Source: Liolophura sinensis
Lineage: Eukaryota > Mollusca > Polyplacophora > Chitonida > Chitonidae
Length of the DNA: 64,000 nucleotides
Direction of reading: 5' to 3'
Assembly (NCBI RefSeq): GCF_032854445.1
Contig: NC_088297.1
Span: 8,917,375-8,981,374, forward strand
Under the pieces are notes generated by a model that worked only from the letters and a program-made list of their open reading frames with translations, did not search any database and was not told the DNA's origin. This document shows positions 1,768-59,940 of this stretch, piece by piece. The translations under genes were made by a program, and so were the position numbers. Position 1 is the stretch's first letter, and each line of letters begins with the position of its first letter.

Positions 1768-2394
1768 ATTGCACAGGGAACATCCCAGAACCAACATGGC
1801 TGAAAGGGCTGAACCCACCGGCACCTATCCAATCAGATCTTCCGTTACACCGAGGCCTCACAACAGTGCGCAGTAAAAGTCCACGACACAAACGGCATGG
1901 CCTTGGCCACTCTCCGACTGCTATGCTGCATCCCACTTCTGACACCAGCCATCTTCAGGAGCGTGATACAGGCGACAGTGATATTTTAGAACTTGTGGTG
2001 AAAAATGAACCTCAGGAGGTGTTTCCTGTGAGTTTACACGTTCATGACAGACTGAGTGCAGATCGAACGAACTCCAGAAAGCGTGCAAGTGCACAAGACC
2101 AGGACGTTTTGCATTCAGACAATAGCATATTCCCCACCTCCGCATCCACACCCTCAAAGTCCAGACGCCTCTCCTCACACTCAGACAATAGTTTTTCAGC
2201 AGGTGGACAGGACTCTGTGTCAAACCAAAGTTTCTTATCAGTCATAGGCATTGGTGAGCAGCCGTCCACATCATCTATATCAGACCAAGCGGGTGATGCA
2301 CTGTTAACTGTCCAGAGATATGAAGCTAGTCAAATCAGCGAAGAAGACCAAAGTGTAGGTGCTGATCCGTCCATATCAACCTCAAGTCAATCAG
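1768..2394 (+). CDS. Unit 1 constant exon 2 (internal exon, nuclear-type disordered segment)
   Basis: An internal exon of 627 nt. The acceptor is a pyrimidine-rich stretch ending in ctccag at 1767, and the donor is gtaggt at 2395. Both junctions are phase 1: the first two bases complete an Asp codon begun in exon 1, and the last base starts the next codon. The product begins DCTG, followed by PEPTWLKGL near residues 8-15, a motif shared with the exons at 41416 and 59317. A psi-K-x-E SUMO consensus (VKNE, Lys at about residue 79) is followed by VFPVSLH. Basic patches SRKR (about 103-106) and KSRRLS (about 131-136) look like a nuclear localisation signal. The Ser-rich part ends with SNQSFLSVIG. 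Low complexity suggests disorder. Exon 1 of this unit lies left of the window. The function of the family is not known to me. Confidence 0.82.
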
Positions 2395-5300
2395 GTAGGT
2401 TGTCTTCTGTACTTACTACTATCATTTCACGGGGGAAAATCAGTCAGTGGATCAGTTCTCAACGTCATGGGAGCAGTGTTTAAATCAGGCCGTCAGTTGT
2501 TAACTGCTAAAAACAATAGGGCCATCTTTAAAAAATATTTCTTAGACATAACCCAACCGTATCAGACAAAAAATGGTAAGTTTGCAGGGGCTAATAAAAA
2601 CGTTATAGAGCATTTTAAAGAAATTAACATTGACAGACAAATGAAAGGAAAACTTTTAACAAAATCCCAGTAAAATCCTTTTGAGTCCATGTTTTGAAAA
2701 GATCATTTGAGTTAGGTCTTGTATTCTGTATCACCAACTATTTTGCGTGTTCACCATGTATGGACACCATTTCTCTTTTAAGCCCAGATCTTGGCAAATC
2801 TCCATGAGATAAGTTATTACCACTGTCGAAAGGTTAAGGTGAATAAATTGCCTTTAAAGTTGTCCTTAAACATGCCAAAAGTTTGAAAAAGTAGAGTACT
2901 TTATTCTGGTAACTACAAACACATCTTTAGAAATGTACTGCATGCCCCTTAATGTAAACTGGAGAGGATATTTGATCAATAATATGTTGGTCTAAAAAGG
3001 GAGAAACTTTCCATGACACAATGCCATTAATGTTTTTGATACACAGCATTTCTCATGACATACAGGATTTAGATTTTTGTTATTAAATGCTGACTGATTT
3101 TTCTTGAAATTCAATATTTTTATTTCTTGGATATGTATACATACTTAATATTGTGTATGAAAGGACATGTGAAAGAGTGCACCATATATGTATCCTGTTT
3201 AGACATGTGGGGCCATTTTTTAAAAAATTCTTTGTTGAGGGTAACACAACCCTCTCAGAAGAAATAGGGTCTGTCTGCTTGGAATTTTTTTCTGTTCCGC
3301 CTATTGAAGGATATAGGTCATACATGTAGCTAAAAAAAATTCCATCAAAAGCTCAATTAAAACTTAACAATTGGGTCCGTTTTGGGAAGGTTGGTTGGGT
3401 TACCCTCAACAAGCATATTTTTATAATGGTCTTTAGATTAGGTGTACTGGAACTCCAGATTTTCAGGTACTGAAATTGAGAGACAGTAATTTTCTTGGTA
3501 TTTTGTTATTGTGATTATGTGAAACACTTTCACGAAAATCTCAAGTAGTCTTTATTGATAATCAAATCAAGAATTATTTGTATATTGTATTATGTCACAA
3601 AAAGTTTGGTACATGCATGTAAAAATGCACTTTTCTGATGCATATAAAGGGCTTAAAACTTGTAAAATAACACTTTTAATGCCAAAGTCTATAAGTTCTT
3701 CTGAAAAGAAATTAATGGCAGTAGCATAAAAGCGAATAAATCGGTCCGAATCAAGTAAAACGTGTCACTTGAAAAATACTTACATGTAACTTGAGGTGAA
3801 ATGGGGTATTTTGGTTTGTTTAGTGTTTGCTGACATATTTTAGAATATTTCACTTACACATTACTGAATGTGGTCAGGTGTAGGCTTGGTGTGAATTGAA
3901 CAAACCCCTGTAGAAAACCACCGCCATTCTGCAGGAACCTGATAAACCGTCTACTTAATGCTGCAGCCAAAGCAGCTGGATGTGGATTCTACAACGCCAT
4001 TTCGTTTGTCAAAGACCAGTGAACTGTGGGGCCCTAATTATTTGTATTCATGTGATGACATAGGTTAGTTTTTATACGTTATTATACACTGAATATGTTT
4101 CAGGGATGATGTTTCTGTTTGTCTACATGTACATGCATCAAGTGAACGTGATATGCCTGTCTTTTATTACGTTATCATGATTGTGTAAACATTTAGGATG
4201 ATAACAATATTTACATGTACATGTTGATGTGAATTTACTTACTTTGGGGGTGCAGTTTTTCCTGCATGTACTTACATCCCCATGGACAGTATACAGCAAA
4301 CATAAATACATGTGTATCAATTGTCAACATCTTTTGCACACCCAAATTTGAAATGCCTGTGTGTGTGTTTACCATGTATTTATCTCGGGAGAGACTGCAT
4401 TGATAATATAAGTAACACACACAGCCCTTATATAATATGGGAAGTGCCTATCATGTCAGATTATGGTTCAGATGATGACTGCACCAAGCATGCTACAGTA
4501 TGGTGTAAAGGTAGACACCATGTATGACATACACCTACATGTAACATGCAGTTCAGGGTAACAGACTTAGTCACATCCATGCTCTTTGCTAATGAAGGAT
4601 TCTTTTGGTGGTGGGTGTGATACCTTTGTTGACAACATTAAGTAAAGATATAATTGTGAGTTCTTTGTTTCTTGTTCTTAAATCGTGATTGATGGTTCAC
4701 CTGCACTGTATTTGTACGGACAACATTTTGCAAAATTAAGTATGCATGTACAGGTACATGTATATCCCAAAAATTACTTTCATTTTCAATTCCCAATATT
4801 AATTTACAGTGTCTGTAAATTAATATCATCACATGAACAGTATTTATACATGTGACTTGGGATTACATGTATATCCTGTGAAAAACGGTAGTTTTAATCC
4901 TTGGTTTTTTTTGTGCCAGTGATATTGGAATGAGTTATATGAGAGAAAAAGGACGTTTTTTATGACATTATTCCTCATATCTGAATGTCTAAACAGGTTA
5001 TACAACTCCATGTTTTATTTTTATTCCCATTAAATATGTATACAACTATTGAACAATTTAATAAAATGAAGGATGTAAAGTCTGAAATTCTATATAAAAT
5101 ACAATATTGTAAACATCATTATTAACACAAGCATTACATGGGCTTTCAGTTTCCCCAAACTAATTTACATAAAGTTTGAATTGTATACCATTCATCTCCC
5201 AAGAGATAAACGAAATCCCACCTCTGACAACAAAAAGAGGCAGCAAGTCCAGAACGTTAATACATGTTTTTGTTCTTTGTTTCAAGTATTTAGCATCCAG

Positions 5301-5700
5301 AAACTTGTAAATATTCAGGGTGGATATGATATGCACAGAAATGAGCCTTGTAGTTTTTATAAACGTTTGGACACAAATGAGAGAGCAGGCATGTGGCTCC
5401 TCCGCCCCCCCCCCCCCAAAAAAAAATAATAAAGCCAGAGGGATATTCCTGAATGATTTTCTTGTACTATATTTCGCGAGGTTCAAACTTGGTCATTCTT
5501 CAGTGTATCAAGGGCACATGTATATTTTGTTAACTTTTAAAATTTTACGGTAAGGTGTTCATGCTTATGTGCACATTGATGGACCTTTGATGAAATTTGA
5601 TGCTCTGCTCAAAAGTTTGAAGATAGAGACATGTATTAGAAACACGTGTGAAAACAGGTTCTTGTTATTAAAGTGTGGACAGTGGCTACATCTTATGAGA

Positions 5701-8336: not shown

Positions 8337-8770
8337 CAGCACACCTGTTGGATAATGTATGGACGGCATCCAGCGCTCCGCAAAAGACGGTCTCCACTTT
8401 GCGGAATTCGGCCAGCGCCTTGGGAATATGCCAGCGATGGTTGGCGGATCACTGCGGAGAGCATCGAAAGATCGAGACGATAGAACCCTCGGCTCTGGAC
8501 CCGTTGTTGTCCAGGTTTATTACAGAGGTGAAGCGATACGGTGGACGGGACTATCACCCGAACTCTCTCGTATCACTGCGGAAATGCCTGGATCGCCATC
8601 TTCGCCTGAACTTCTACCCGTGCTCCATAAAGGACTCTCCCGAATTCTACAACTTTCAAGAGGCTTTCAGACTGAGAAAGGCGGAGTTAGAACTGAAATT
8701 GGCCCAAGGAGTTATATCTCCTGGTGTTAATAGAATAACCCGAGAAGATGTGAGAAGTGGGGCTATTTAA
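8337..8770 (+). CDS. Unit 1 terminal exon 1 (Crypton-derived DUF3504-like domain)
   Basis: A terminal exon encoding 144 residues including the split first codon, ending in TAA. The acceptor follows a pyrimidine-rich tract and is a tandem cagcag site: cutting at 8337 or at 8340 keeps frame, so an isoform with one residue fewer is possible. After a leader of about 21 residues comes the family domain (about 22-117): NSASALGICQRWL, IETIEPSALDPLLSRF, DYHPNSLVSLRKCLDRHL and FYPCSI. It is among the more divergent copies: it has NS-A instead of NTRSAV and no Gly before the YP. The family resemblance is to the N-terminal DNA-binding-like part of Crypton-derived DUF3504 proteins; no catalytic recombinase part follows. 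It lies about 5.9 kb downstream of exon 2 and is the first of seven. Confidence 0.78.
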
Positions 8771-10363: not shown

Positions 10364-10447
10364 AAATTATTTATTTATTTATTTATTCATCTGGAGTTTT
10401 ACGTCGTACTCAAGAATATTTCAATTATACGACAGCGACCAGCGTTA
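10364..10447 (-). mobile_element. SINE-A 3' fragment
   Basis: A T-rich tail followed by the reverse complement of the conserved SINE 3' end. It abuts the 52-bp tandem array. Confidence 0.7.
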
Positions 10448-10452
10448 TAGTT

Positions 10453-11130
10453 ATGTGAATGGAAAGACTTGAGATATATGTGGAATACTAGCCATATACT
10501 CATATTCTCATATGAGAAACTATAGCTATGTACAATATGTGGAAAACTATCCATATACACTTCGTGAGAAAGTGTAGCTATATACAATATGTGGAAAACT
10601 AGCCATGTACAGCTCGTGGGAAACTATAGCTATATACAATATGTGGAAAACTAGCCATGTACAGCTCGTGGGAAACTACAGCTATATATAATATGTGGAA
10701 AAATAGCCGTATACAGCTCGTGGATAACTATATACAATATGTGGAAAAATAGCCGTATACAGCTCGTGGGAAACTACAGCTATATACAATACGTGGAAAA
10801 ATAGCCGTGTACAGCTCGTGGAAAACTATAACTATATACAATATGTGGAAAACTAGACATATACAGCTCGAGCAAAACTACAGCTATATACAGTATGTGG
10901 AAAACTATCCATTTACAGCTCGTGGGAAACTATAGCTTTATACAATATGTGGAATACTAGTCATTTACAGTTCGTGGGAAATTGTAGCTATATGCAGTGT
11001 GTGGAAAACTAGCCATATACAACTCGTGGGAAACTATAGCTATATACAATGTGTGGAAAACTAACCATATACAGCTCGTGGTAAACTATAGCTATATACA
11101 GGATGTGGGGAAAAAAAGCCATATACAGTA
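10453..11130. repeat. 52-bp tandem array, about 13 degenerate copies
   Basis: The unit contains acaatatgtggaaaactagc and cagctcgtgggaaactatag. Copies differ by scattered substitutions and small deletions, so the array is not young. It lies in the intron 200 bp before the acceptor of the exon at 11332. Confidence 0.9.
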
Positions 11131-11331
11131 TATAAGAAACTATACGTGTGGGAAACCGGGCAGGTATGTTTAAAACTAGGCGTATAAAGGGAATACTGGC
11201 GATATGTGATGAAAGCTGACGATACAGGTGGAAAAGACACGCACATAAACTTATTTGCTCCATACTTACTGATTTATATTATCGTTCTTTGTCGGACGTC
11301 TTCAAAAGCTTAGATTTCTTTTCATTGCCAG

Positions 11332-11879
11332 TGACGAGTTGTGGACAAATGATGACGTCACATTCAGACGGCAGTCCTTCAGCTGACGTGAACAGACATT
11401 TGCATTCGGAACGCAACCACGGAAACCGGTGGAAAGCAGATGGGGTTCGAGAAAGCGGTGGACAGTCGATTCATGAAAGCGGCGCTGTTAGCTTTGTGGA
11501 CGTTCTCTCCAGTCCTACCTACAAAAACAGCATTTATTCCGTGAACACTTTGCACGCGTGGTTAAGAGACCAGGGAGAGTCACGTGATGCACACGTGATC
11601 CCAGCAGACCTACTCGACTCCTATCTATCCTCATTTTTTAAGACAGTGAGACAAAAGAATGGTAGCGACTATAAATCGAATTCGCTGATATCGTTGCGGA
11701 AGTTTTTGAACTTGTATCTCAAAGGAATGGGCTATCCACATTCGATTGTGAAGTCTGAACAGTTCTCGGCCTCGCAAAGGGCGTTTCGCGAACGACTTCT
11801 GTCCCTTGAGATGCACCGATACCCCAGGGCTCAAGAAGGCACCGCGTGGACCGGTCATGCTCAGAACAAGACATTATAG
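11332..11879 (+). CDS. Unit 1 terminal exon 2 (Crypton-derived DUF3504-like domain)
   Basis: A terminal exon encoding 182 residues, ending in TAG. The acceptor is strong (pyrimidine tract then ttgccag at 11331) and gives phase 1, starting with a Val codon. A polar, His- and Ser-rich leader of about 60 residues precedes the domain (about 64-160): NSIYSVNTLHAWL, then VIPADLLDSYLSSFF, SDYKSNSLISLRKFLNLYL and GYPHSIV. It lacks the NTRSAV core of other copies and has Phe-Phe where copies 3-6 have Phe-Trp, so it groups with the exons at 8337 and 45242. A 52-bp tandem array ends about 200 bp upstream of the acceptor. An AATAAA hexamer stands at 13359, although such hexamers are frequent by chance in this AT-rich DNA. 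Confidence 0.82.
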
Positions 11880-14157: not shown

Positions 14158-14618
14158 GAGATGAGAATCAAGGTCAGTTAACCAGCAGCCCATACAACTT
14201 GCCGGACCCCAACGAACTCAAAGTTATCTCTCCATACCAATCGGACAGGTTCATCGGCGCAACTGCCTATTCCACCACGGTGAACACCAGGAGTGCTGTG
14301 AACTTGTTCGAACGTTGGTTCTGGGATAAGCACAGAAAGGACTTTCAAAAGATCGAGGACGTCGACCCGGCGAGACTGGATCCTATTTTGTCCGAGTTCT
14401 GGATGACGGTGCGCCGGCGCACGGGCGATCCTTACCAGCCCAAGTCTCTCAGACTGCTCCGAACCAGACTTGAGCGCCATCTTAAGGACCGTGGATACCC
14501 ATACTCCATCATCAACTCACCTCAGTTCTCTCGAAGTCGCCAAGCGTTTCTGAACAGGGTAACACTGAGCACCCCGCAAGAAGAGGTAGACCTGAGTGGT
14601 GCACCATCGGCATCCTAG
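14158..14618 (+). CDS. Unit 1 terminal exon 3 (Crypton-derived DUF3504-like domain)
   Basis: A terminal exon encoding 153 residues, ending in TAG. The acceptor (tgttttccatgtcccag, ending 14157) gives phase 1 with a Gly codon. The leader of about 42 residues is rich in Pro, Tyr and Ser. The domain (about 43-140) reads NTRSAVNLFERWF, KIEDVDPARLDPILSEFW, DPYQPKSLRLLRTRLERHL and GYPYSII, ending in FSRSRQAFLNRV. The Phe-Trp after the second helix and the LRTRLERHL helix place it with the exons at 17639, 22700 and 26460. The whole reading frame is open and its base composition is visibly richer in G+C than the flanking intron, as expected for a constrained exon. AATAAA occurs at 15611. Confidence 0.83.
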
Positions 14619-17638: not shown

Positions 17639-18186
17639 TGCCAGCTGACCGCTCCGCGGAGTTGATCAAGATGCTGATGAGAAAGTCCCAGGGTTTCTGG
17701 ACGCCGGAAGTGTATCCTGACGCCAGCAACGCTCCAAGCGGCAGCGACACCAGCGGACAAATGAGTCCAGGGGAGGTAATTCATGATCTCACTAAACAGG
17801 ACATAGCAGACGACGGCATCAAAGCCACATCGACGTCAACCATCGTGAACACGCGAAGCGCTGTGGGAATTTTCGAGCGTTGGTTATTCGAAGAACACGG
17901 AAATGACCAGCGTAAAATCGAGACGATTCCTCCCGCTGAATTAGACCAACTTTTGTCTGAGTTTTGGATAGGAGTGCAGAGTCGAACTTCCGGACAATAC
18001 CGTGCAGGAACGCTCAACAATTTAAGGGCACGTTTGGAACGGCATCTCAGAGTATGTGGGTACCCTCACTCTATTGTCAAGTCGGAAATCTTCAACAGGA
18101 GCAGATGTGCTTTCAGAGACAGGGTGGCAGCGTGCAAGACGAAAGAGACGAATGACATTGTACCTGATCAACCATTCGGAACCTGA
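17639..18186 (+). CDS. Unit 1 terminal exon 4 (Crypton-derived DUF3504-like domain)
   Basis: A terminal exon encoding 182 residues, ending in TGA. The acceptor, a long pyrimidine run ending cttgtcag at 17638, gives phase 1 with a Val codon. The leader of about 70 residues includes a basic stretch (KMLMRKSQ) and a Ser/Gly/Pro-rich part. The domain (about 71-168) reads NTRSAVGIFERWL, KIETIPPAELDQLLSEFW, GQYRAGTLNNLRARLERHL and GYPHSIV, then FNRSRCAFRDRV. The usual Ser of the third block is Thr here (GTL). AATAAA at 18688 lies about 500 bp after the stop and is followed by an A-rich run, so it is a reasonable candidate polyadenylation signal. Confidence 0.84.
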
Positions 18187-22699: not shown

Positions 22700-23184
22700 T
22701 GATGCCGATGGAAGAGGACAGGGTATCACAGCCGGCTAGTTTCAACGAGGGCGGTTCGTTCGGCGGCGATATGGTTAACAGCCGACAGTCCATCCATAGG
22801 CCGTCGCCAGGACAGGGCTCCAGTCGGAATACAACGGTCAATACCCGAAGCGCCGTGTCCATCTTCGAACGCTGGATAAAGCAGCCGCCGTACCAAGACG
22901 ATCGCCGGATAGAGGAGATTCCGCCTGTGGAGTTGGACAGGTACTTGGAGGTGTTCTGGGGAGCTGTCAAACGTCAGGACGGTGCGGACTACAATCCGAA
23001 GTCCCTCAGTCAGTTGCGGACCCGGTTAGAGCTCCATTTAAAGACCTGCGGCTACCCTATGTCGATAGTGGCGGAGTCAGCTGTGTTTGTCAAGAGCCTT
23101 CTGGCATATAAGAGGAGAACGGAGTCGAAACGCCTGCCGAATTTCTCCAACGTCATGAACGTTGACTTCAGTGCTCTCGAGTGA
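22700..23184 (+). CDS. Unit 1 terminal exon 5 (Crypton-derived DUF3504-like domain)
   Basis: A terminal exon encoding 161 residues, ending in TGA. The reading frame is open far upstream (from 22426), but the acceptor tttgtgttaccag at 22699 is where the family phase fits: it gives a Val codon, then MPMEED. The leader of about 47 residues is Gly/Ser-rich. The domain (about 48-147) reads NTRSAVSIFERWI, RIEEIPPVELDRYLEVFW, ADYNPKSLSQLRTRLELHL and GYPMSIV, followed by FVKSLLAYKRRT. One residue is inserted after SIV compared with its relatives (SIVAESAVF). AATAAA occurs at 23888. The upstream open stretch could alternatively be a 5' extension from a local promoter; I see no support for that. Confidence 0.83.
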
Positions 23185-26459: not shown

Positions 26460-27004
26460 CGGACAGTGGACCGTTGAATCTGTCTGGAAGAAGTCACGTG
26501 AGCCAACATTATCCTCGGCAAATTCCGTTCGCCTTCAACCCGGTCGTGAGTCCCCCAGACTTCGGGAGAAATCGGCAAGTATCCGAGACGACAGCTCTCA
26601 ATACCAGAAGTGCAGTGTCCATTTTTGAAAGATGGCTTTTTGAGAATTTTCACCCTGAAGTAGCCACCAAATACGACAAAATCGAAGACATACCTGTCGA
26701 GGAACTCGACGAGTACTTGTCACAATTCTGGCCGACCGTCAAGAAACAAAATGGCGCCGATTACCAAGTCGAGTCGCTCGTGCAGTTGAGAACGAGGCTG
26801 GACCGTCATCTACGCCACGCTAGCTATTCCCAGTCTATCGTCAAGTCTCATTGTTTTGCCAAAAGTCAGAAAGCTTTCAAAGAGAGGTCGGCTATCATCA
26901 CAGGATCACGATCCGCTCACTTAACCTTTGCAGTGGCGTCCTCGGAGACAACCAGAGAACAAGACACAGCTGAACAACATCAGGATTCTACAAAAAATCA
27001 ATAA
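26460..27004 (+). CDS. Unit 1 terminal exon 6 (Crypton-derived DUF3504-like domain)
   Basis: A terminal exon encoding 181 residues, ending in TAA. The acceptor ctttctccttcttatcgacag (ending 26459) gives phase 1 with an Ala codon. The leader of about 47 residues has His, Pro and Arg. The domain (about 48-147) reads NTRSAVSIFERWL, KIEDIPVEELDEYLSQFW, ADYQVESLVQLRTRLDRHL and SYSQSIV, then FAKSQKAFKERS. GYP is changed to SYS here. A polar tail of about 35 residues, rich in Thr, Glu and Gln, follows the domain. The NTRSAVSIFERW block is identical to that of the exon at 22700, so these two are probably a recent tandem pair. AATAAA occurs at 27997. Confidence 0.84.
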
Positions 27005-28304: not shown

Positions 28305-28573
28305 GGGGCCTCCGTGGCTCAGTCGGTTAGCGCGCTAGCGCAGCGTAATGACCCAGGAGCCTCTCACCAATGCGGTCGCTGTGAGTTCAAGCTCAGCTCA
28401 TGCTGGCTTCCTCTCCGGCCGTAAGTGGGAATGTCTGCAAGCAACCTGCGGATGGTCGTGGGTTTCCCCCGGGCTGTGCCCGGTTTCCACCCACCATAAT
28501 GCTGGCCGCCGTCGTATAAGTGAAATATTCTTGAGTACGGCGTAAAACACCAATCAAATAAATAAATAAATAA
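28305..28573 (+). mobile_element. Full-length SINE-A with perfect target duplication
   Basis: It starts ggggcctccgtggctcagtc with tRNA-like box A (tggctcagtcgg) and box B (gagttcaagctc). The family body (ccataatgctggccgccgtc) and an (AAAT)n tail follow. A perfect 12-bp duplication, ataaaaagttga, flanks it at 28293-28304 and 28574-28585. It is a good reference copy for the family, which resembles the tRNA-SINEs with a conserved central domain known from molluscs. Confidence 0.92.
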
Positions 28574-30730: not shown

Positions 30731-30999
30731 GGGGCCTCCGTGGCTCAGTTGGTTAGCGCGCAAGCGCAGCGTAATGACCCAGGAGCCTCTCACCAATGGG
30801 GTCGATGTGAGTTCAAGGCCAGCTCATGCTGGCTTCCTCTCCGGCCGTACGTGGGAAGGTTTTCCAGCAACCTGCGGATGGTTGTGGGTTTCCCCCGGGA
30901 TGTGCCCGGTTTCTACCCACCATAATGCTGGCCGCCGTCGTATAAGTGAAATATTCTTGAGTACGGCGTAAAACACCAATTAAATAAATAAGTTAATAC
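30731..30999 (+). mobile_element. Full-length SINE-A
   Basis: It has the full tRNA-like head, body and AAAT tail. It is flanked by gtctcaatg (30720-30728) and gtctcattg (31000-31008), a duplication with one mismatch. Confidence 0.88.
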
Positions 31000-32041: not shown

Positions 32042-32493
32042 GTTGGGACGAGTTGACGTTGCGCTATTCTGAGACGATGGAACCGAGAGTTGAGAATTCA
32101 CTTCCGGCGAAGCACTTTCCCAAAAGGAAACGTTTTGAAGACAACACCAGTAGTAACACCCGAAGCGCCGTTCATCGCTTCTCCGTCTGGCTCTGGCATA
32201 ACGCACAAGACAACCGGCCAATCGAGACCATTCCACCGGAAGAGCTGGACCCGTTCCTCTCGGATTTTTACCGGACTGTCCGGAGACAAGAGGGCGGGGA
32301 ATACACACCCAGATCGCTCCGGTCCCTCCGGGAAAGGCTACAGAGACACCTGAAATCTCATCATTATCCAGTGTCCATTGTTAATTCACCGGATTTCGCT
32401 AACAGCAAAGACACTTTCAATGCTAGAATTGTTGAACTCAGCGGATTGTTTTCTGTTTCCACGACAGGCCATGCAAACCTATCTGTCCATTAG
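32042..32493 (+). CDS. Unit 1 terminal exon 7 (Crypton-derived DUF3504-like domain)
   Basis: A terminal exon encoding 150 residues, ending in TAG. The acceptor cttcgtttcag (ending 32041) gives phase 1 with a Gly codon followed by WDELTLRYSE. The leader carries a basic cluster FPKRKRFE (about 26-33) that could act as a nuclear localisation signal. The domain (about 39-135) reads NTRSAVHRFSVWL, IETIPPEELDPFLSDFY, GEYTPRSLRSLRERLQRHL and HYPVSIV, then FANSKDTFNARI. AATAAA lies only about 46 bp after the stop (32539). A fragment of this exon is repeated at 34911. This is the last intact terminal exon before the next exon 1 at 39273. Confidence 0.83.
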
Positions 32494-34910: not shown

Positions 34911-35012
34911 GAAGCACTATCCCAGAAGGAAGCGTTTTGAAGACAACACCAGTAGTAACACCCGAAGCGCCATTCATCGCTTCTCCGTCTGGCTCTGGCA
35001 TAATGCACAAGG
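34911..35012 (+). pseudogene. Truncated duplicate of terminal exon 7
   Basis: About 100 bp nearly identical to 32115-32216, covering the basic cluster and the first helix of the domain (KRFED through NTRSA, then IHRFSVWLWHNAQ). Similarity stops abruptly inside the domain; eight codons later the frame meets TAA. The second helix, the SL/LR block and the C-terminal helix are missing. AG dinucleotides upstream (34875, 34901, 34911) do not give the family phase, so I read it as a broken exon copy. It could be a very short alternative end if an unusual acceptor is used. Confidence 0.75.
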
Positions 35013-35620
35013 CAGTCAGTCCACGAATTAAGTACCCACTAACAGAAAATTGCACAGAATAGTGGTTTTTTGAAAAGATGTAAAATCTTAAATTAATCTT
35101 TGTTTTTTTCTCCACAATTTTGTCTGTACTGGATACATGTGCTCTGGCAATGGAAATCTGTATGTCAATAGTGCGAAAGTTTCTCAGTTATTTGCCTACA
35201 GGCGGTGGTTGCCTCCAGGTTAACCCCCCACCCATGAAGCTGAACGTCATTGTTAAAGTGAATTATACGCCGCTAAATCACAACTCAAATAAATAAATAA
35301 ATAAAATTTGCTGGAGATTTTGTTCATATTTTGAGCAGAAAACTTTATTGCTGAGCAAGCTCATCCAAGCTGCTGTTAAAAGGATACAGATTTCTTCTTG
35401 GGTCAGGGTGCGCTGCTCATTGAGTACTTGTGTATGTACATGAGATCCCCTTCCAGGAGCGGGTTCAAACCCGCCCGCCGACAGCGCATTTGTAGATTTA
35501 CAAACTCTCAGTGTCCGTATTAACATTGATGACAGAAAGCGGTCAACGGCGTTAGTGTGGAAGCCTGTGCAGTCTTACGTTCGTTGAATTCCAGCACTTG
35601 GCTTCCTTCAATACGGTGTG

Positions 35621-39272: not shown

Positions 39273-39417
39273 ATGGGAGTGACATTGGAGAGAGTGCAGA
39301 ACAAATTTGCTTGCATTATTGGAGAACTCTGCAGTGAACCGGATATCTTGTCACAGTTTGCTGTTTGGGTGGACTTGAGGATAGCAGAGTACAAAGCTAA
39401 AGGAGCAATATCATTAG
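39273..39417 (+). CDS. Unit 2 constant exon 1 (start codon exon)
   Basis: The first coding exon: ATG, 48 codons and one extra base, then donor gtaata at 39418. The peptide begins MGVTLERVQNKFACIIGE and ends YKAKGAISL; it looks helical (two amphipathic stretches, about 4-19 and 24-42) and may mediate oligomerisation or partner binding, which is inference. It encodes the same 48 residues as the exon at 56883, yet 15 codons differ, all synonymously. The extra G pairs with AC at the start of the exon at 41416 to give Asp. A pyrimidine tract and cag about 95 bp upstream of the ATG could be an acceptor for a 5' untranslated exon. A foldback element ends about 440 bp upstream. Confidence 0.85.
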
Positions 39418-39600
39418 GTAATACTGTGTGTATGGTATGTCTATATCTATCTGTGTTGGGTTTGATTTGTTTCTTGTGGCACAGTTTAAATACATGTTGT
39501 GTGGTACATGTAGATACCACACATTTTTCTCTTTAAAACTGATCTATCTATGGAGTGTACCTATGGGTATTTTTTAGTACCTCAACCCAATTACATTTAC

Positions 39601-40735
39601 TTGTAAGTTCATGAAGAGAACATGCACACATACATTTACCTGTAAGTTCATGAAGGGTACATGCACACATACATTTACCTGTAAGTTCATGAAGAGAACA
39701 TGCACACATACATTTACCTGTAAGTTCATGAAGGGTACATGCACACATACATTTACCTGTAAGTTCATGAAGGGTACATGCACACATACATTTACCTGTA
39801 AGTTCATGAAGGGTACATGCACACATACATTTACTTGTAAGTTCACGAAGGGAACATGCACACATACATTTGCCTGTAAGTTCATGAAGGGTACATGCAC
39901 ACATACATTTGCCTGTAAGTTCATGAAGGGAACATGTGCACATACAGATGCCTGTAAGTTCATGAAGGGAACATGCACACATGCATTTACCTGTAAGTTC
40001 ATGAAGGGAAAATGCACACATGCATTTGCCTGTAAGTTCACGAAGGGAACATGCACCCATACATTTACCTGTAAGTTCATGAAGGGAACATGCACACATG
40101 CATTTGCCTGTAAGTTCACGAAGGGAACATGCACACATGCATTTGCCTGTAAGTTCACGAAGGGAACATGCACACATGCATTTACCTGTAAGTTCATGAA
40201 GGGAACATGCACACATACATTTGCCTGTAAGTTCATGAAGGGTACTTGCACACATGCATTTACCTGTAAGTCCATGAAGGGAACATGCACACATACATTT
40301 ACCTGTAAGTTCATGAAGGGAACATGCACACATACATTTGCCTGTAAGTTCACAAAGGGAACATGCACCCATACATTTAGCTGTAAGTTCATGAAGGGAA
40401 CATGCACACATACATATGCATGTAAGTTCACGAAGGGAACATGCACACATACATTTGCCTGTAAGTTCATGAAGGGAACATGCACACATACATTTACCTG
40501 TAAGTTCATGAAGGGAACATGCACACATACATATGCATGTAAGTTCATGAAGGGAACATGCACACATACATTTGCCTGTAAGTTCATGAAGGGAACATGC
40601 ACACATACATTTACCTGTAAGTTCACGAAGGGAACATGCACACATACATTTACCTGTAAGTTCACGAAGGGAACATGCACACATACATTTAGCTGTAAGT
40701 TCATGAAGGGTACCTGCACACATACATGCATGTAA
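39601..40735. repeat. 39-bp minisatellite, about 29 copies, in unit 2 intron 1
   Basis: The unit contains gtaagttcatgaagggaaca and tgcacacatacatttacct. The period is 39 bp, a multiple of three, and no stop occurs in one + frame and two - frames, so frames of 374-391 codons run through it. Position inside an intron, fixed repeats and no start context argue that these are by-products of the repeat. Each unit also carries a donor-like gtaagt. Confidence 0.93.
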
Positions 40736-41132
40736 GGCTAAATATATTTTGGTCGTCTTGGTGCCCTGAAACAGACAAGTATGTCATTCCTCGTTATCAC
40801 CAGTTTTTGATATATAGGTGATTTTGAATTGACACTTTAGCTGGCATGATTATCGGAGAAAACTATTAATATATAAACCCATAAATACCTACATGTTTGT
40901 ATGGCATCCATATTATGGTGTTGCTATCTTGTTTATGTCAGAACAATCACATGGAATTGTCACTGAATATAATATATATGTTGATCATCCTGTAGACTAC
41001 AAAACAAAAAGGGTATGAACTGTATTATCAAGTTCTAAGGAAAATGTTATATGATATGTGTACATTCGAGGGATGATTTGATGATTAAATTAGCACTTCC
41101 CTTCAGCCATTACACAGAGCTGTCTTTGACCC

Positions 41133-41415: not shown

Positions 41416-42090
41416 ACTGCTCAGGAACAACTCCAGATCCAACATGGCTGAAGGGGTTGAAACAACCCAAACCTGTCCAATCAGATCCAGTGTTAGAGGG
41501 AAATGACCTTTTACTGGCCAGTAGAAATGCTAGACACAAACATCATGGCATCAGCAACTCAGCTCGACGTGTGCAACCTGAACCACGCGATGTCCAGACA
41601 AACAGGGACATGGCTAGCAGAGCGCGTGTCATTGACGGGGAGTATGAAATTTCTGTTAAAGACGAACCATCAGACTGTGACCGTGTTTTTCCAGTGAGTC
41701 TCCACTCGAACAATGGTAGTGGTCACATGGGTATATCTCACAACAACAGCTCAGAACAAAGACTGGCAACAGGGGAATCTTCTGAAGCACTCACTGGGTA
41801 TTTGGGTTCCGATGTAAACAGACTTTCTCCAACAATGCTGCATTCCAGAAAACGATCATTTTCAAATGCAGAAGAGCGATCCATTTCACTAGCTCATTCT
41901 GATGCGAAAACAAGAAGACTGTCTTTAGCGTCGAAGAATAATTTTTCTGCTGGCCACGATTCAACACAGAGTTTGTTGTCAGTTATAGGAGTCAACAATG
42001 CAAGTGTTGAGCCATCATCAAAAGAGGAAGGTCAGCTAAGGGGGCATAACTCTGGCAGGATGTCAGATTCAACAGATCCTAATCAAACAG
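41416..42090 (+). CDS. Unit 2 constant exon 2 (nuclear-type disordered segment)
   Basis: An internal exon of 675 nt, with acceptor tatttgtag (ending 41415), donor gtaaag at 42091, and both ends phase 1. It begins DCSG, then PDPTWLKGLKQP. Other shared landmarks in the same order as units 1 and 3 are ARHKHHG, the SUMO consensus VKDE (Lys about residue 82) followed by VFPVSLHSNN, RKRSFS, KTRRLSL, SLLSVIGV, and the end STDPNQTG. Between landmarks the sequence is freely diverged and indel-rich, as in a disordered linker. It is the most diverged of the three exons 2, with SLAHSDAKTRRL in place of the doubled HSDNS motif. Joined to exon 1 and the exon at 45242 it would give a protein of roughly 540 residues. 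Confidence 0.85.
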
Positions 42091-43504: not shown

Positions 43505-44757
43505 TAATGTTGATCCCACTCTCTTCATACAGAGGTGTTCAGGTCAGTAGATTTGAATGGTTTGTGGTGTATCTAGAGAGTAATGTTGATCCCGCTCTCT
43601 TCATACAGAGGTGTTCAGGTCAGTAGATTTGAATGGTCTGTGGTGTATCTAGAGAGTAATGTTGATCATGCTGTCTTCATACAGAGGTGTTCAGGTCAGT
43701 AGATTTGAATGGTCTGGGGTGTATCTAGAGAGTGATGTTGATTCCACTCTCTTCATACAGAGGTATTCAGGTCAGTAGATTTGAATGGTCTGGGGTGTAT
43801 CTAGGGAGTAATGTTGATCCTGCTGTCTTCATACAGAGGTGTTCAGGTCAGTAGATTTGAATGGTCTGGGGTGTATCTAGAGAGTAATGTTGATCCTGCT
43901 GTCTTCATACAGAGGTGTTCAGGTCAGTAGATTTGAATGGTCTGGGGTGTATCTAGGGAGTAATGTTGATCCCACTCTCTTCATGCAGAGGTGTTCAGGT
44001 CAGTAGATTTGAATGGTCTGTGGTGTATCTAGAGAGTAATGTTGATCCCGCTCTCTTCATACAGAGGTGTTCAGGTCAGTAGATTTGAATGGTCTGGGGT
44101 GTATCTAGGGAGTAATGTTGATCCCACTCTCTTCATGCAGAGGTGTTCAGGTCAGTAGATTTGAATGGTCTGTGGTGTATCTAGAGAGTAATGTTGATCC
44201 CGCTCTCTTCATACAGAGGTGTTCAGGTCAGCAGATTTGAATGGTCTGGGGTGTATCTAGAGAGTAATGTTGATCCCACTCTCTTCATACAGAGGTGTTC
44301 AGGTCAGTAGATTTGAATGGTCTGTGGTGTATCTAGAGAGTAATGTTGATCCCGCTCTCTTCATACAGAGGAGTTCAGGTCAGTAGATTTGAATGGTCTG
44401 GGGTGTATCTAGAGAGTAATGTTGATCCCACTCTCTTCATACAGAGGTGTTCAGGTCAGTAGATTTGAATGGTCTGTGGTGTATCTAGAGAGTAATGTTG
44501 ATCCCGCTCTCTTCATACAGAGGTGTTCAGGTCAGTAGATTTGAATGGTCTGGGGTGTATCTAGAGAGTAATGCTGATGCCACTCTCTTCATACAGAGGT
44601 GTTCAGGTCAGTAGATTTGAATGGTCTGTGGTGTATCTAGAGAGTAATGTTGATCCCTCTCTCTTCATACAGAGGTGTTCAGGTCAGTAGATTTGAATGG
44701 TCTGGGGTGTATCTAGAGAGTAATGCTGATGCCACTCTCTTCATACAGAGGTGTTCA
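43505..44757. repeat. 76-bp tandem array with a 152-bp higher-order period
   Basis: About 16 copies. The unit includes ctctcttcatacagaggtgt and tcaggtcagtagatttgaat. From about 43960 rightwards two unit types alternate: one with tctgtggtg and cccgctctc, the other with tctggggtg and cccactctc. It lies in unit 2 intron 2, ending about 480 bp before the terminal exon. Confidence 0.93.
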
Positions 44758-45241: not shown

Positions 45242-46047
45242 TTGCGCGAGGATCTGACTGGAGAAACGGACCTGAAACTGACACTCAGTGGACCAAAGGT
45301 CCGAACGTGGATGTGGATGTGGAAGGAAGACACGCACCAGATGTGGAAGTTGTGGAGATTATGGATCATGAGCTGGACGTGGTGGAGAGTGTGGTGGCAC
45401 ATAGGGAGATGATGTTAAGGTATGCAGCCGAGGGGCGTGTTCCTGCCATGTGGGCACAGGGCGTAGATTCGAGCCTAGGTCAGCAGAGAGTGAGGTGGTC
45501 ATCACGGATGAGTCTGATCAAACCGCGCTCAACCCACAAGAACACTAAATGTGCCGTTAGAACACTGCGCACCTGGCTGACCAGGTACAATGATTATCGT
45601 GAAATCGAAACCATTCCCCCGCCCGAATTGGACTCTTACCTGGTGGATTTCTTCTCCACGATCAAGCGGAAAAATGGATCGGACTACCACCCAAGCTCGC
45701 TGAACTCATTACGGAAATTTCTGGACTTCCACCTGAAAGAGAACGGCTACCCTCATTCCATAACCACCTCAGCCAGCTTCAACAAATGCCAGGTGGCTTT
45801 TCGCATGAAGTTTATTGAACTCAGTAACCTACTTTCTGGCAAAGAGACCCGTCATATCAGAGACAGTTCGTTTAGTTTCGAAAATCAGACAGACATTAGC
45901 CAAGCTGAGGATGCTTCATCTCAGGGTCAAGCATTAGTTGATCATCAGGAACTGGACAGTGGTCAAGATGTTCATACAACTGCTGGTCAGCAAGGTCTTT
46001 GGCCATCTGATCATAACAGTGAGGGTGATGACACTACGTTGCTATGA
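45242..46047 (+). CDS. Unit 2 terminal exon 1 (long form, Crypton-derived domain plus acidic leader)
   Basis: The longest terminal exon: 268 residues, ending in TGA. The acceptor tttatttttcttgtcag (ending 45241) gives phase 1 with a Val codon. The leader of about 100 residues has an acidic stretch rich in Asp, Glu and Val (about 22-50) and then a basic run before the domain. The domain (about 101-196) reads NTKCAVRTLRTWL, EIETIPPPELDSYLVDFF, SDYHPSSLNSLRKFLDFHL and GYPHSIT, then FNKCQVAFRMKF. A tail of about 70 residues, rich in Asp, Ser, Gln and His, follows; other copies have short tails. Phe-Phe and LRKFL ally it with the exons at 8337, 11332 and 51978. The intron just upstream is filled by a 76-bp tandem array. 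Confidence 0.84.
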
Positions 46048-48342: not shown

Positions 48343-48345
<3 letters not shown>

Positions 48346-50364: not shown

Positions 50365-51855
50365 CAGGGTCGCACAGTCCCTGAAACTCCATGAAAAATA
50401 CAATTTCATTTTCAAGTACTTGAAAGTCTTTAAAAAAGACAAATACCCCTGGAAACTCCTTGAGAATCATAGTTTGTCCCGAACTTAAATATGGTCTGCT
50501 GACCGCCAAGTCTGTATATCGGGAGCTCGCTGATTATTCTCCCATAATCAGGGCTTCCGCTGGCACTCGTCATTGTCGCAAATTTAGAACAATTTTTTGA
50601 AATGGCGATAAAATTTGAAAAAATGCGAATGTTTTTGGCGACAAATTTATTTACTTAAGAAAAAATATAAACGTTATACAAAATCTACCATGAGAGTTTT
50701 CTGGGGTTTTAAGCAGATTTTCGCAATTTTTCTTATTAAAATAATCCACTTATTTTCATTTCAAACGGCCTCATCTCGGCGAAACAACAACACGATTGTA
50801 TGTTGTATGGCGATTACTTGACAACACGAGTGTATGTTGTATGGCGATTATTTGACAGAAATCTACAAAGGGGGCTCAGCATTGTTGCAAGTTGACTTAC
50901 ATTAAATAACGCTTGAAATCATTTTTGTTAAATAACAAATGAGAATCACGGCATTTTGGGGGGTGCCTTTCATCGCCAATTGTGAAAAAAAAAATTATCA
51001 AGGGAAATAAATCATGGTAGAGTTACACCTATAAATGAACTTACCTCCCATGGAAATTTTAAACTTTTCCACTTAATAAACTAGTTTTTTTGGATTCGAA
51101 GTAAATTAAATGTTTCAGCATTTGTGCCGTTACTTAAATGTGTACGTCATCTGGTTTTCTCCTGTCGGACTGTGTTACTCCAATGTACTGATCATAATCT
51201 TGCATTTAAATAAACTGAATTTACAAATTAATGTCGTAATAAATTTTTCTGATAGAGGAAATTACATATTACTAGGATCCTACAGATAGGCTGAAAAAAA
51301 GGATTGATTTTTTTTTCTCACAAAACGGAAACATGCTGTCAAGCATTGGCCCATTATTTTGAGGGCAATTGTTCTAATTGTAACGTTTGATAAACTCCAG
51401 ATATAGCTGGAAGAGACCAAACTGATTCTAGCGGCTACACCAAGGCAGATAAAAACGAATTACAGAAGGAGACCTACAAGAGTCATGGCCGCCAAGGAAG
51501 TATGGCTAAAGAAAAATAGTATTTACTACAAAATCTGATGAGTAGCTAAAGTGACTGGCTAAAAAAAATACTGACCCAGAGGAAGCCCTGCATAATGATA
51601 TATGGCGTTCATTATTTTGACTGAACCAAGGCCGGGTCAAAGAATGTGTCGCATTACAGAGGTGAACGGCAGATATTTCTTGCAAAAGCAAGCGTACTGT
51701 TCAATATACATGCAAGCAAATTAAAGCATCTATAATTCAGACTTAAAATATAGTCTGTAATTTGCACCATGGTATGTTTAAACTAGCCTTAAAAATAACA
51801 AAAAACTCCTTGAAAACTCCTTGAATTTCATTTTCATATACCTCTGTGAACCCTG
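50365..51855. mobile_element. Non-autonomous DNA transposon, copy 1
   Basis: The ends are inverted: cagggtcgcacag on the left and ctctgtgaaccctg on the right, with ctccttgaaa-type repeats just inside both ends. AGACA directly flanks both sides (50360-50364 and 51856-51860), a possible 5-bp target duplication. There is no transposase-like frame. A second copy lies at 60954-62540. The superfamily is not certain; CAGGG ends are common in hAT-like elements, but a 5-bp duplication would be unusual for them. Confidence 0.8.
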
Positions 51856-51977
51856 AGACATAACCACATACTCTGTGTGGCAATTTATCTCACAGTAACA
51901 TATTTTCCCGGCGGAAGTGTCATATACTGACTGGCTAATTATAATGTTTTGTCAAGGTTTATTTTTGTATTTCCCAG

Positions 51978-52435
51978 AATTTCTCGTGGACACTTTGGAT
52001 TGTGTGGTAGAAGATGAGCAGCCTTTAGTGTCGGAGCCGTCTCACTGGGAATGTCTGTCGCCGCAATCTCCAACACGCCCTCAACAAAGAACATCCACGA
52101 ATATGCGCAGTGCCGTCAACATTTTCAGGAAATGGCTACACGTCAACAATTATCCTACCACCTACCCGGAGAAGATGTCTCCGTCCGAGCTGGACCTTCG
52201 GCTCTCTGAATTCTTTTCCACCATTAAACAGAACGACGGCAGAGATTATAGCGTCCAGTCGTTGCGGTCCTTGAGGAAGCGAATCTCGCGCCATTTAATA
52301 CTTCAAGGCTATAACCATTCCATATGTACTTCGCTCACATTCTGTCTGAGCCAGGTGTCCTTTCAGAAACGCATTGAAGAGCTGAAGAATGCGGATAGCG
52401 GCTCGAATGATAATGAAACGTTCACAGATGTGTAG
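51978..52435 (+). CDS. Unit 2 terminal exon 2 (Crypton-derived DUF3504-like domain)
   Basis: A terminal exon encoding 152 residues, ending in TAG. The acceptor tttttgtatttcccag (ending 51977) gives phase 1 with a Glu codon, then FLVDTLDCVVEDE. The leader is acidic, then Pro/Gln-rich. The domain (about 42-140) reads NMRSAVNIFRKWL, KMSPSELDLRLSEFF, RDYSVQSLRSLRKRISRHL and GYNHSIC. The usual IExIPP is reduced to KMSP. It lies about 120 bp after the end of a ~1.5 kb DNA transposon copy (50365-51855), so the transposon sits just upstream of its acceptor region. AATAAA occurs at 53214. Confidence 0.82.
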
Positions 52436-55408: not shown

Positions 55409-56407
55409 TATATTATGCAAACGTGTATTTTCCGTTAATGGTTGGAAATTTCAGAAATAACATCACTGGTGGTAACTCGTGACCGCCTTAAAGCGCCTAC
55501 CATGCCAACTCTTCTTCGTGAGTTTTTATGATAACTATACGTATGGCCTACATGTAGGCCTGTCAACGCTGAAGTCACGAGTGAAGAAGTTAGAACAGGT
55601 TAGAGCCATAAAATGAAAATTATTGGCCGCTCCCTTCACCGCAAGCTCTTCACATATGGAGGTACATTAAGTGCATAATACAAATGGCCACGAGGAAGGC
55701 TGTGTCGTCTGCGTTTAAAATCCACGTTTAACTGTAACTTTAAGATAAAACAACGGCCGACTGTCATTAATTTGGCAAGTATTCCAGTAATCTGACATTA
55801 TAAGCTGGCATTCTCGTGTACTTTCTTTTTTAAATGGGATCTATTTGATAAGTTAACATTGCCCATCAGATTTAGGATAATTGCTTTTCTCTTCTGATCA
55901 ATAACGAGTGTTATTTGAATGTTTTTCTTCGTCGGGATTTATAAACGATCATCTGCTTTTCTTTCATTGTTTGATTTACCATTTTGCCCCCTTGTTAAAT
56001 TCCCTTCGTTCCTGCAATGGTCATACACTTTTCTCTTGTAAGCTTGTGTCAGGACATATTCATACATTCATCCACAGGGGTTTTCTTGAGGCAATTTTGA
56101 TATATTTTTATATATATATATATATTAATATACATGTATGTGTGCAATAACATGATTGCAAATTTCAGCGAGGATTTATTTCCGTTTAGTTTGTTTTGTT
56201 GGTTGTCATTTAGACATTATCTTGATAGTGCATGCTTAGTCCAAGAACACTGACTGTTTATTGAAGAATATTTGGATACGTCATATTGATCATATTCATG
56301 TCTGCTCCATCCACAGTCAGGGACGAGCATACTTGGCTAAAATGGTGATGAACAGATGGCAGCCTGAATAAGCACTCCACTTTATACCTCTAACTGGTCA
56401 AATCCAT

Positions 56408-56679
56408 GTTGGGGGCCTCCGTGGCTCAGTTGGTTAGCGCGCTAGCGCAGCGTAATGACCCAGGAGTCTCTCACCAATGCAGTCGCTGTGAGTTCAAGTC
56501 CAGCTCATGCTGGCTTCCTCTCGGGCTGTACGTGGGAAGGTCTTCCAGCAACCTGCGGATGGTTGTGGGTTTCCCCCATGCTGTGCCCGGTTTCCACCCA
56601 CCATAATGCTGGCCGCCGTCGTAAAAGTGAAATATTCTTGATTACGGCGTAAAACACCAATCAAAAAAAAAAAAAAAAT
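56408..56679 (+). mobile_element. Full-length SINE-A with perfect target duplication
   Basis: It has a complete tRNA-like head and body and an A-rich tail. A perfect tcaaatccat duplication lies at 56398-56407 and 56680-56689. It lies about 200 bp upstream of the unit 3 start codon. Confidence 0.9.
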
Positions 56680-56882
56680 TCAAATCCATCTCCCCTTCCT
56701 ATGGCCACACATAATGTTGTTCTGTCGCTTTGCCAAAAGACAGTTCTGTAATCTCAGCAATTGTGAACTCATTTTTTGTTTTTTACAAAATCATCTGACT
56801 TTCAAGTCTAAATGTTTAGTGGTTTTCTGTTGTTAGGGTCTGCATATTTGAAAGACTGATATTCACACCTGAAAAGCTAAAA

Positions 56883-57027
56883 ATGGGAGTGACCCTGGAG
56901 CGAGTACAGAACAAGTTTGCCTGTATTATTGGAGAACTGTGCAGTGAACCTGATATCCTATCACAATTTGCCGTGTGGGTGGACTTGAGGATAGCAGAGT
57001 ACAAGGCTAAAGGAGCCATATCATTAG
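56883..57027 (+). CDS. Unit 3 constant exon 1 (start codon exon)
   Basis: ATG plus 48 codons and one base, then donor gtttgt at 57028. The encoded peptide is identical to that of the exon at 39273 (MGVTLERVQ through AISL) although 15 of 48 codons differ, so selection on the protein is strong and the duplication is not recent. The length, 145 nt, is the same. A SINE ends about 200 bp upstream; in between, a stretch ending ctgttgttag (about 56837) could be an acceptor for a 5' untranslated exon. Phase matches the exon at 59317. Confidence 0.84.
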
Positions 57028-59316
57028 GTTTGTATCTTAGTGTGATGGAATAAAAAATCTGAAGACTTTACATGTAGTCTTTTACATCGAACCTTTAAAT
57101 AATGACATTTTCAATGAATATTTGTTTAGTTCTTTATGTACATGTACACAAACCTGTATACCTTTGAAGGCCATCACTGGCCCTGCTGTTTAGGACTACC
57201 ATCTCTTGACCAATAATAAAACAAAGGCCTCTTGCATTTCATGTTTGTATCATTTAAATGCATTGTAGCTATCGCAGCTCTGATCACATGCAGCATTATC
57301 TTCGGGCCAGGGGATTCCCCAGGTATAACTTGCCTATTCCATGTTTCCTATGGTTTTAGAATCATGAATGGCTTACTGTTATATTATATTTTAATTTGAT
57401 TGGATAGCACTCCAGTTGGTGTTTTCAATAATAACCAGGGCCCAGTTGTTTGAAAGTGTATTAGCTATATGTATAAAAACTGGTATTAAGTCGTATTTTA
57501 TATTAAAGGACAAGACAGCACTTGGCCAAAACATATTTCAGTTGAACGCAGGATACTCAAGCTTTCTAAAAAGTATCATACTTTAATATTTTAAGGAGAT
57601 TTCACCGAATAACATGTAGAACAAAATAACAATCCTGCTCAAATGGCTGCTGTAAGTCGAGGCAATCATCATGAGAATTTTATCCAATCAAATATATTGC
57701 CATCAGATCGCGAGACCTAAGCTGTGACGCAGTCTTTTCCCATTCACTTCATGAAGTGACAAATGATAACCTGGGACTACTGCATAAGATATCATTTTGA
57801 GATCATTTACAATGATTTATGTGTAATTGAAGGGAAATTTCATAAAGTGTTGTGGGGCAGGTCTGTATCATTTACAGCCCTCCACAGATGTACATGTACA
57901 GTCAGTTGATTTACTAGCCCTGTAATATTCAATGACAGTATCACAAATTATGTCAGACATTACATAACGTCTCGTCCCAAACCGAATGAATCTCCTCAAA
58001 TACATTTTTTGTTGTTCATGTTAGTGTTTAATCAGCAGTTTTCAAATAACAAATATCAGGGTCAATGCAAACTTTATCAGGGATGCTGAAGGTTTATGGG
58101 TAGGGATGCTGAAGGTTTATGGGTAGGGATGCTGAAGGTTTATGGGAGTGAGAAGACGGCATCTCACCGGACAACACTTTAAATTAATTAAACTGTATAA
58201 TTTTTTTCTTTGAATTTATTACACCTGAAGAATTTAAATTTTGCTCCCTGGTCCCTCTCCCATACAAACGATGTTTCTTCGTGTTTTCTTTGTAAAATGC
58301 AGTAAAAATTAATGAAACACAGCGTTCAAGCCGAGGTGCTTTCTCTGACATCGGCCTCATTTGTTTCAGAATTGATCATGTACAACAGTCCTATTGTAAT
58401 TTGTAAACATTTAATTGGGGCCACAATCACCAGCACAACCCCTCTAAGGGTTACGACCTGAACCAGGAATACCCTGGCCTTGCATCTGCAGGTATGCTGT
58501 TGATACAGGGTTGCTGGAGTTCCTTGTAAATGATATAGTAGGCCTAATGTATCAACAGTTCAAGCAGTGGAGGAAATATTCTTCCGGTATGCCCATTTTC
58601 CGAGAAAACTGTATGTATCATGTGAGCATTCATCGCCGAAGTCCACAACTTTTATCTGCCATAGACTACTGCATAGACTATTATACGGAAAATACTTTCC
58701 CTGTTAGAGAGCAAGAGGAAACGTGACATCACTTTGCCCTCAATAATGGAGATGTGCTGAAGCTGTGTCTAGACAAAATTTCACTAAACTTTTACTGGGT
58801 TGAAACATATCTAGAAGAGTATTTAATGTTGGTTTATAAAGATATTTTGAATGGTAGGCTTTCAGTGGACATTAACATTAGTCAAGCACTGTCTTTCATT
58901 TTATCAATTTAGGTTTTCTTCTTTGTTCTTCAGTATATTCTCTATGATGTATGCATGCGTCAGGCTGACAGTCTCTTAAGATTTTTAGCCAAACTCATCA
59001 GCCAGTGTAGTTCTCCAAAGTCAGTATTGTAACAGCAGCAGTTCTCTTTCATATTTAGTGTAATGTTACCCAATTTTTGTTTAGACTAAGTACAAAATTG
59101 AAGACCAAGTTAAATCTGGTATTAAGTCTTAAACCAGTTTTGAACACCTGATCTTTGGGGTGAGGTTTCCACCAAAACTAAGAAGAGCTGTTTTATACCG
59201 TTGCTTCTCATTCTTTAAAGTATGTGAAGTTGTATGTGTCACATTCTGACAGTTATTAATAATGGCCATGCACCTGTGTACATTTTCAAGCATATACATG
59301 TAATCTTATCTTACAG
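57028..59316. other. Unit 3 intron 1
   Basis: It contains a 23-bp triplicate at 58078-58148 (ggatgctgaaggtttatggg). Nothing else was recognised. A 71-codon frame at 58511-58726 has no similarity I know and no splice phase match. Confidence 0.55.
58078..58148. repeat. 23-bp tandem repeat, three copies
   Basis: Three identical ggatgctgaaggtttatggg units (with gta linker) in unit 3 intron 1. Confidence 0.92.
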
Positions 59317-59940
59317 ACTGCACTGGATTGACTCCAGACCCCAAATGGCTCAAGGGACTGAAGACAGTCTCCAGCCAAGCAGATTCACCGTTACAAAAAG
59401 GCCCGGCCAGGCTGTCCAGTGGAAACGCCCGTCATAAAAACCAAGTGTCCAGTTCAGCACAGAACTCTAGTTTTGAAACAACTGTGAACCCTGAGTGGTC
59501 TTCTGAGTCTCACGATACAGAAAGTGTTGTTGTTAAACAGGAGATGGACCATGACTCAGCAGCATTTCCCATCAGTTTACATTCTAATCATTCCAACAGT
59601 ACTATCACAGTGCCAAGAAAGCGACAAGGTGGGGATGATGGAGATATTTCACATTCTGATAACAGCATATTCTCCTCCTCTCACCCCTCAAAGTCCAAGC
59701 GCCTCTCCCCACACTCAGACAATAGCTTATCTGGGGGTGGACAAGACTCTGTGTCAAACCAAAGCTTTTTATCAGTCATAGGTGTGAATGATCAGCCTGA
59801 CCAGACACCCCAAGACACTTTGTTACCTGTGCGTGAAAATAGTGCTGACCTTGCAGAATCATCAGAAGATATAACAATTACATATAATGACAGTCAGGTA
59901 TTCTATCATCAGCCTGCAACTACAGATCCTGCTCAAACAG
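59317..59940 (+). CDS. Unit 3 constant exon 2 (nuclear-type disordered segment)
   Basis: An internal exon of 624 nt, with acceptor cttatcttacag (ending 59316), donor gtaaga at 59941, and phase 1 at both ends. It begins DCTG, then PDPKWLKGLKT. It then carries ARHKNQ, the SUMO consensus VKQE (Lys about residue 74), FPISLHSNHSN, PRKRQ, HSDNSIF, KSKRLSPHSDNS and SNQSFLSVIGV, and ends TTDPAQTG. It is clearly closer to unit 1 than to unit 2 over the second half, where long nucleotide stretches are nearly identical. No terminal exon for this unit is seen before the window ends, 4 kb downstream; in unit 1 the first one is 5.9 kb away, so it is expected to the right. Confidence 0.85.

Follow-up and report, generated by a model that had tools for sequence, protein, structure and literature searches.

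Whether one set of upstream exons can be spliced to any of an array of alternative last exons is the question raised by a stretch of 64,000 nucleotides (hereafter the window) from the chiton Liolophura sinensis, corresponding to C3:8917375-8981374 of a 609-Mb assembly. The species name is the one carried by the matching RefSeq proteins; the assembly was first published under L. japonica (PMC11068029, where RNA-seq from five tissues is also listed), and the name was later corrected (PMC12441733). The initial annotation of the window had proposed a combinatorial cluster, in which a single locus joins constant 5' exons to alternative terminal exons encoding variants of one domain. Our analysis indicates that constant exons are very probably combined here with a choice of alternative last exon, within an extensive gene system of this chiton. 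We argue from what the analysis shows, namely the exon anatomy with its phases and orientation, the RefSeq isoforms, the predicted fold of the domain and the selective constraint.

Portions of three adjacent units lie in the window, U3 (LOC135463663), U4 (LOC135463878) and U5 (LOC135463764). Every unit possesses an exon 1, an exon 2 and a set of alternative last exons. A check of the sequence recovered the nine terminal exons, three copies of exon 2 and two copies of exon 1 described before, all on the + strand. Exon 1 of U3 (C3:8916932) precedes the window by about 440 bases and is followed inside it by exon 2 (1768..2394), which is in phase 1 at both ends and encodes a V-K-x-E motif, and by seven terminal exons at 8337..8770, 11332..11879, 14158..14618, 17639..18186, 22700..23184, 26460..27004 and 32042..32493. 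U4 consists of exon 1 (39273..39417; start codon, 48 residues plus one base, and a phase-1 donor), exon 2 (41416..42090) and terminal exons at 45242..46047 and 51978..52435. Exon 1 of U5 (56883..57027) encodes the same protein as that of U4, and its exon 2 (59317..59940) fits LOC135463764, while the U5 terminal exons are found beyond the window, at C3:8983379 and 8986416 (core-binding domain, see below) and at about 8992070 (another tail). The exon-1 copies end in phase 1 at 39417 and 57027, and the exon-2 donors at 2394, 42090 and 59940 are all GT and all in phase 1. As first described, every terminal exon (9/9) has a pyrimidine tract, an AG acceptor, a phase-1 frame open to its stop and one copy of the common domain. 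The proposed acceptors stood as nine AG dinucleotides in phase 1, but the exon proposed to start at 8337 begins at 8340 in RefSeq, since the listed protein uses the downstream member of a CAG-CAG pair. In addition, positions 34936..35028 (+) repeat the first part of the domain of the 32042 exon in truncated form, which suggests exon birth and death.

Evidence for the joining of these exons comes from NCBI gene models. For seven of the nine window terminal exons, the product of exon 1, exon 2 and the terminal exon was identical, letter for letter, to a RefSeq protein. Six isoforms of LOC135463663 have residues 1-257 in common and end in six different window exons, namely those at 8337 (X7, P0008), 11332 (X2, P0009), 14158 (X4, P0006), 17639 (X1, P0007), 26460 (X3, P0004) and 32042 (X5, P0003), in agreement with the claim that common 5' exons are joined to several terminal exons; the 45242 exon of U4 ends P0001 (541 aa). 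The exons at 22700 and 51978 are intact and in phase 1, but none of the 120 RefSeq relatives listed is identical to their predicted products. These 120, of 121 relatives found in a protein search with the isoform ending in 51978, are all from Liolophura and all carry the exon-1 motif (120/120). Their first 120 residues divide them into 32 constant groups, 19 of which account for 107 proteins with all tails distinct within each group and up to 24 tails per constant part; X31 was the highest isoform number among the matches listed. The isoforms marked X are Gnomon predictions, a kind of model in which alternative forms need transcript evidence.

The idea of a single locus had to be given up, as the window holds three units and the genome 38 that contain one or more domain exons. 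Exon 1 occurs in 45 copies genome-wide (46 candidates, all scored), mostly on C3 and C7; C6 has a single copy and C1 two divergent ones. At least 229 distinct domain exons were found, fragments included (198 on C3, 24 on C7 and 7 on C6), using three protein searches, a profile search across the 264 kb surrounding the window and two rows of another search; the number is a lower bound, each protein search having scored 150 of 269 to 273 candidates, and it includes at least three fragments (C3:8865960, 8952310 and 9056775). Two or more domain exons belong to 32 of the 45 exon-1 copies, and the largest unit has 29. We reject a model of one gene per domain exon, with separate 5' exons for every gene, because 45 exon-1 copies were found for these 229 domain exons. 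Within the 264-kb region exon 2 was located at seven sites, all of them preceded by an exon 1 in the same orientation, and units on either strand begin with the constant exons and continue with the variable ones. Other observations on C3 are an exon 1 at C3:9006048-9006194 (-) for which no exon 2 or domain exon was found, a divergent exon 1 (50%) at C3:9009355 (+) about 3 kb before a lone domain exon, and repeated tblastn matches to the last 12 to 16 exon-1 codons at L028 (C3:9093535-9094059), just downstream of U9 exon 1.

The nearest upstream exon 1 was on the same strand for 229/229 domain exons, compared with 72/217 for the nearest downstream exon 1. Since strands are clustered, shuffling the strands of the exons gives a weak null (mean 166.9 of 206, maximum 180), and a flip of the exon-1 strands is a better one. 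The nearest upstream exon 1 is a median of 19 kb away and up to about 94 kb, and such distances could suggest that the alternative exons have promoters of their own and are joined by trans-splicing as in mod(mdg4), which produces more than 30 isoforms in this way according to PMC12692577. However, agreement of strand is what cis-splicing requires, and the same source places the alternative exons of mod(mdg4) on both strands, in contrast to the single strand seen for all 229 chiton exons; we therefore consider trans-splicing quite improbable.

Phase tells a similar story. Using the 36 stronger of 39 matches in the 264-kb region, which also served for the k-mer and domain-exon dN/dS work, a phase-1 acceptor was uniquely best for 31/36 domain exons as compared to 12 expected under random phase, as scored by a crude measure of our own, the pyrimidine content before the AG. 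Phase 1 was not uniquely best in the remaining 5/36, two of which (32042 and C3:9062358) are in phase 1 according to RefSeq. In a search for a docking or selector motif upstream of the terminal exons, 6-, 7- and 8-mers were no higher than in random regions, and polyadenylation signals were uninformative, being present within 500 bases of 16/36 exons compared with 54% at random. Since individual mobile-element insertions would be expected on both strands and in all phases, we reject them as the source of the array in view of its uniform strand and near-uniform phase. A related explanation is that the terminal exons are remnants of Cryptons that landed in introns, the RefSeq isoforms being annotation artefacts. 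Some domain copies are indeed truncated, and the domain profile matches frames elsewhere in the genome (L042, 39.9 bits; L041, 33.5 bits), labelled as Crypton recombinases by eye with no named Crypton compared. Yet the exons share one strand and mostly one phase, their frames are open, and dN was lower than dS in 9/9 terminal-exon pairs above 55% identity (dS saturated in 8/9), making this explanation hardly credible.

What, then, do the terminal exons encode? The variable domain is predicted to adopt the core-binding fold of tyrosine recombinases, as found in QRICH1 and Cre. QRICH1 was ranked first by Foldseek (E 0.13, probability 1.00), with no match at E up to 0.001, and the Pfam QRICH1 family PF25561 matched 8/9 window exons below its cut-off of 30.8 bits and the ninth not at all. 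A PDB sequence search with the domain returned chance rows only and no true relative. Strong QRICH1-family matches exist elsewhere in the genome, on C1, separate from the exon array. The catalytic half of the recombinase, with its R-H-R-Y residues, is absent from the window terminal exons, in which the stop follows 13 to 72 residues past the domain match. Our guess is that a Crypton-type recombinase was recruited as a terminal exon, of which the core-binding half persisted while the catalytic half was lost, and that tandem duplication of the exon produced the many copies. P0106 (LOC135463632 isoform X1) has a longer tail on the same constant half, long enough for a catalytic domain; in our reading, this tail resembles a whole Crypton recombinase and is perhaps near the founding capture.

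The core-binding domain forms the C-terminus of 108/120 listed proteins, P0106 included, while 12/120 have other tails (111 and 13, respectively, when four further proteins outside the 120 are counted). Among eleven of the other tails (all but P0115), C2H2 fingers exceeded the Pfam cut-off in P0107 and P0112 and remained below it in P0119, and precomputed C2H2 domains are given in the database entries of P0108 and P0116. The tail of P0113 contains CENP-B_N and HTH_Tnp_Tc5 above the cut-off, those of P0105 and P0114 gave BEN matches below it, and those of P0016, P0110 and P0117 had no convincing match in the Pfam scan. We infer DNA binding by the main domain from its fold, and by the C2H2 and CENP-B/Tc5 tails from their Pfam matches. 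Alternatively, the target of the core-binding domain may be not DNA but a protein on DNA, for instance a zinc-finger factor, as in the QRICH1 'Zincore' complex (PMC13383152), and the isoforms would then be co-regulators with different partners. Two observations speak for protein binding: the best structural match is to QRICH1, from an entry whose title describes its binding to ZFP91 on DNA, and the catalytic half, needed to complete the clamp of a recombinase, is missing from the window terminal exons. In contrast, the recognised C2H2 and CENP-B/Tc5 domains in the same terminal slot of some units fit better with DNA targeting, and we regard binding to proteins as a possibility to be taken seriously, albeit not a probable one.

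The constant half is less easily classified. Exon 1 encodes 48 highly conserved residues with two predicted helices, and the exon-2 product, modelled with low confidence, is probably disordered and contains the V-K-x-E motif as well as basic stretches. At E up to 5, Pfam gave no family for exon 1 (two versions) or for the second exons of U4 and U5, the U3 exon 2 had no match at E up to 1, and a PDB sequence search with exon 1 returned only a designed repeat protein, of which no stretch passed by itself, and no true relative. The SUMO consensus, [VIL]-K-x-E, was present in the exon-2 region of 117/120 RefSeq proteins compared to 6% in shuffled sequence, and as a motif it would fit with a nuclear regulator. 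On C1, the divergent exon-1 copies L033 (C1:70529833) and L034 (C1:79760600), with 53 and 49% identity, are followed by a frame with a W-M-x-G-like start that is otherwise unrelated; by their sequences they are possibly single-copy relatives of the constant half.

Selective constraint is seen in exon 1 and in the terminal exons. Between U4 and U5, exon 1 differs by 16 synonymous and no amino-acid changes, and among eight of the nine exon-1 copies in the 264-kb region (the divergent copy excluded) dN/dS was at most 0.171 in the 24 of 28 pairs with finite dS. Since synonymous sites are near saturation, most of the compared duplications are old, whereas the exon-1 pair of U8 and U9 is a recent duplication (dS 0.10). 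Three domain exons match proteins beyond the 120 listed at 96.8, 87.4 and 92.3% identity, and these counterparts, together with the old duplicates, suggest a stable rather than a fast-changing repertoire. This bears on the possibility that the array serves genome defence, with a constant repressor half carrying recognition domains against mobile elements by a logic like that of the KRAB zinc-finger genes. Although such a repertoire could look like this, with many members in tandem, recognition domains of the kind found in mobile elements and a SUMO-like motif, the age of most duplicates (U8/U9 being the exception) and the close counterparts of three exons elsewhere make it unlikely.

How does this layout compare with known systems? 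In lola and mod(mdg4), the parallel drawn by the initial annotation, common N-terminal exons with a BTB domain are likewise combined with one of many alternative terminal exons, which encode C2H2 or FLYWCH fingers, those of lola being DNA-binding domains. The parallel holds for the common 5' exons and alternative terminal exons, but not further, since the chiton constant part has no BTB match in Pfam, the chiton exons are on one strand only and the variable domain is of recombinase type. Clustered protocadherins and Dscam also combine constant exons with arrays of variable exons to give many isoforms; however, their variable exons come first or are internal and their products are cell-surface proteins, whereas the chiton constant exons precede the domain exons in 38 units, the reverse of the protocadherin order. 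It had further been stated that no metazoan locus was known to do this with a Crypton-type domain, yet a small precedent exists in vertebrate KIAA1958, which, as described in PMC3212892, is one gene with two isoforms carrying different Crypton-derived domains on different exons. According to the same source, each of the two KIAA1958 exons encodes a whole DUF3504, the splicing is unconfirmed experimentally, and QRICH1, ZMYM2/3/4 and WOC also differ from the chiton proteins in having the whole DUF3504 domain. KIAA1958 is the nearest precedent, and the chiton layout resembles it greatly enlarged, with up to 29 domain exons per unit, the core-binding half only (in the window) and dozens of units. 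In the titles and abstract openings that our literature search covered, with few subscription papers among them, no system with this layout was described, and by term search 'Crypton' does not occur in the main text of either the 2024 genome paper or the 2025 comparison of five chiton genomes.

Repeats were also noted in the window, and tRNA and Rfam scans gave no matches. The intron after U4 exon 1 holds a 39-base minisatellite of about 30 copies that is open in three frames (39594-40751), and further tandem arrays were seen at 43505-44716 (76 bases), 10413-11194 (52 bases) and 63587-63982 (33 bases). An intronic segment is duplicated with 87 to 93% identity, one copy (50455-51514) being just upstream of the terminal exon at 51978 and the other (61043-62232) in the intron after U5 exon 2, where no domain exon was found nearby inside the window. 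Dispersed repeats of families D5 to D9, SINE-like by eye, occur at 28305-28572, 30731-30998 and 56412-56679, among other positions.

In the mechanism that we propose, one pre-mRNA would span a whole unit, and the phase-1 donor of exon 2 would be joined in cis to one phase-1 acceptor, the chosen exon providing the C-terminus and the stop. The protein would then consist of a constant N-terminal half, which may mediate self-association (dimerisation), nuclear entry and SUMO-type regulation, and of an interchangeable C-terminal recognition domain, replaced by other DNA-binding domains in some terminal slots. Cis splicing of one transcript, dimerisation, nuclear location and targeting of DNA or chromatin are what we infer from the features above, and the isoforms would differ only in target recognition. 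More tentatively, and with somewhat less than even confidence, we suggest that more than 200 interchangeable recognition modules derived from the DNA-contacting half of a recombinase, spliced to one conserved N-terminal half and complemented by other DNA-binding domains in the same slots, form a combinatorial nuclear recognition system, possibly a code for cell identity or a repertoire for surveillance of mobile elements. To our knowledge, this would exceed in size every other constant-plus-variable array of nuclear recognition domains, mod(mdg4) with its more than 30 isoforms serving for comparison. If true, such an array would exist outside insects and be built from a recombinase domain, indicating a possible route from a mobile-element domain to a repertoire selected by splicing. 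The system would allow one to ask whether core-binding domains alone read DNA, and its separate units how one donor picks among up to 29 acceptors. In conclusion, one chiton gene could give rise to many regulators with different targets.
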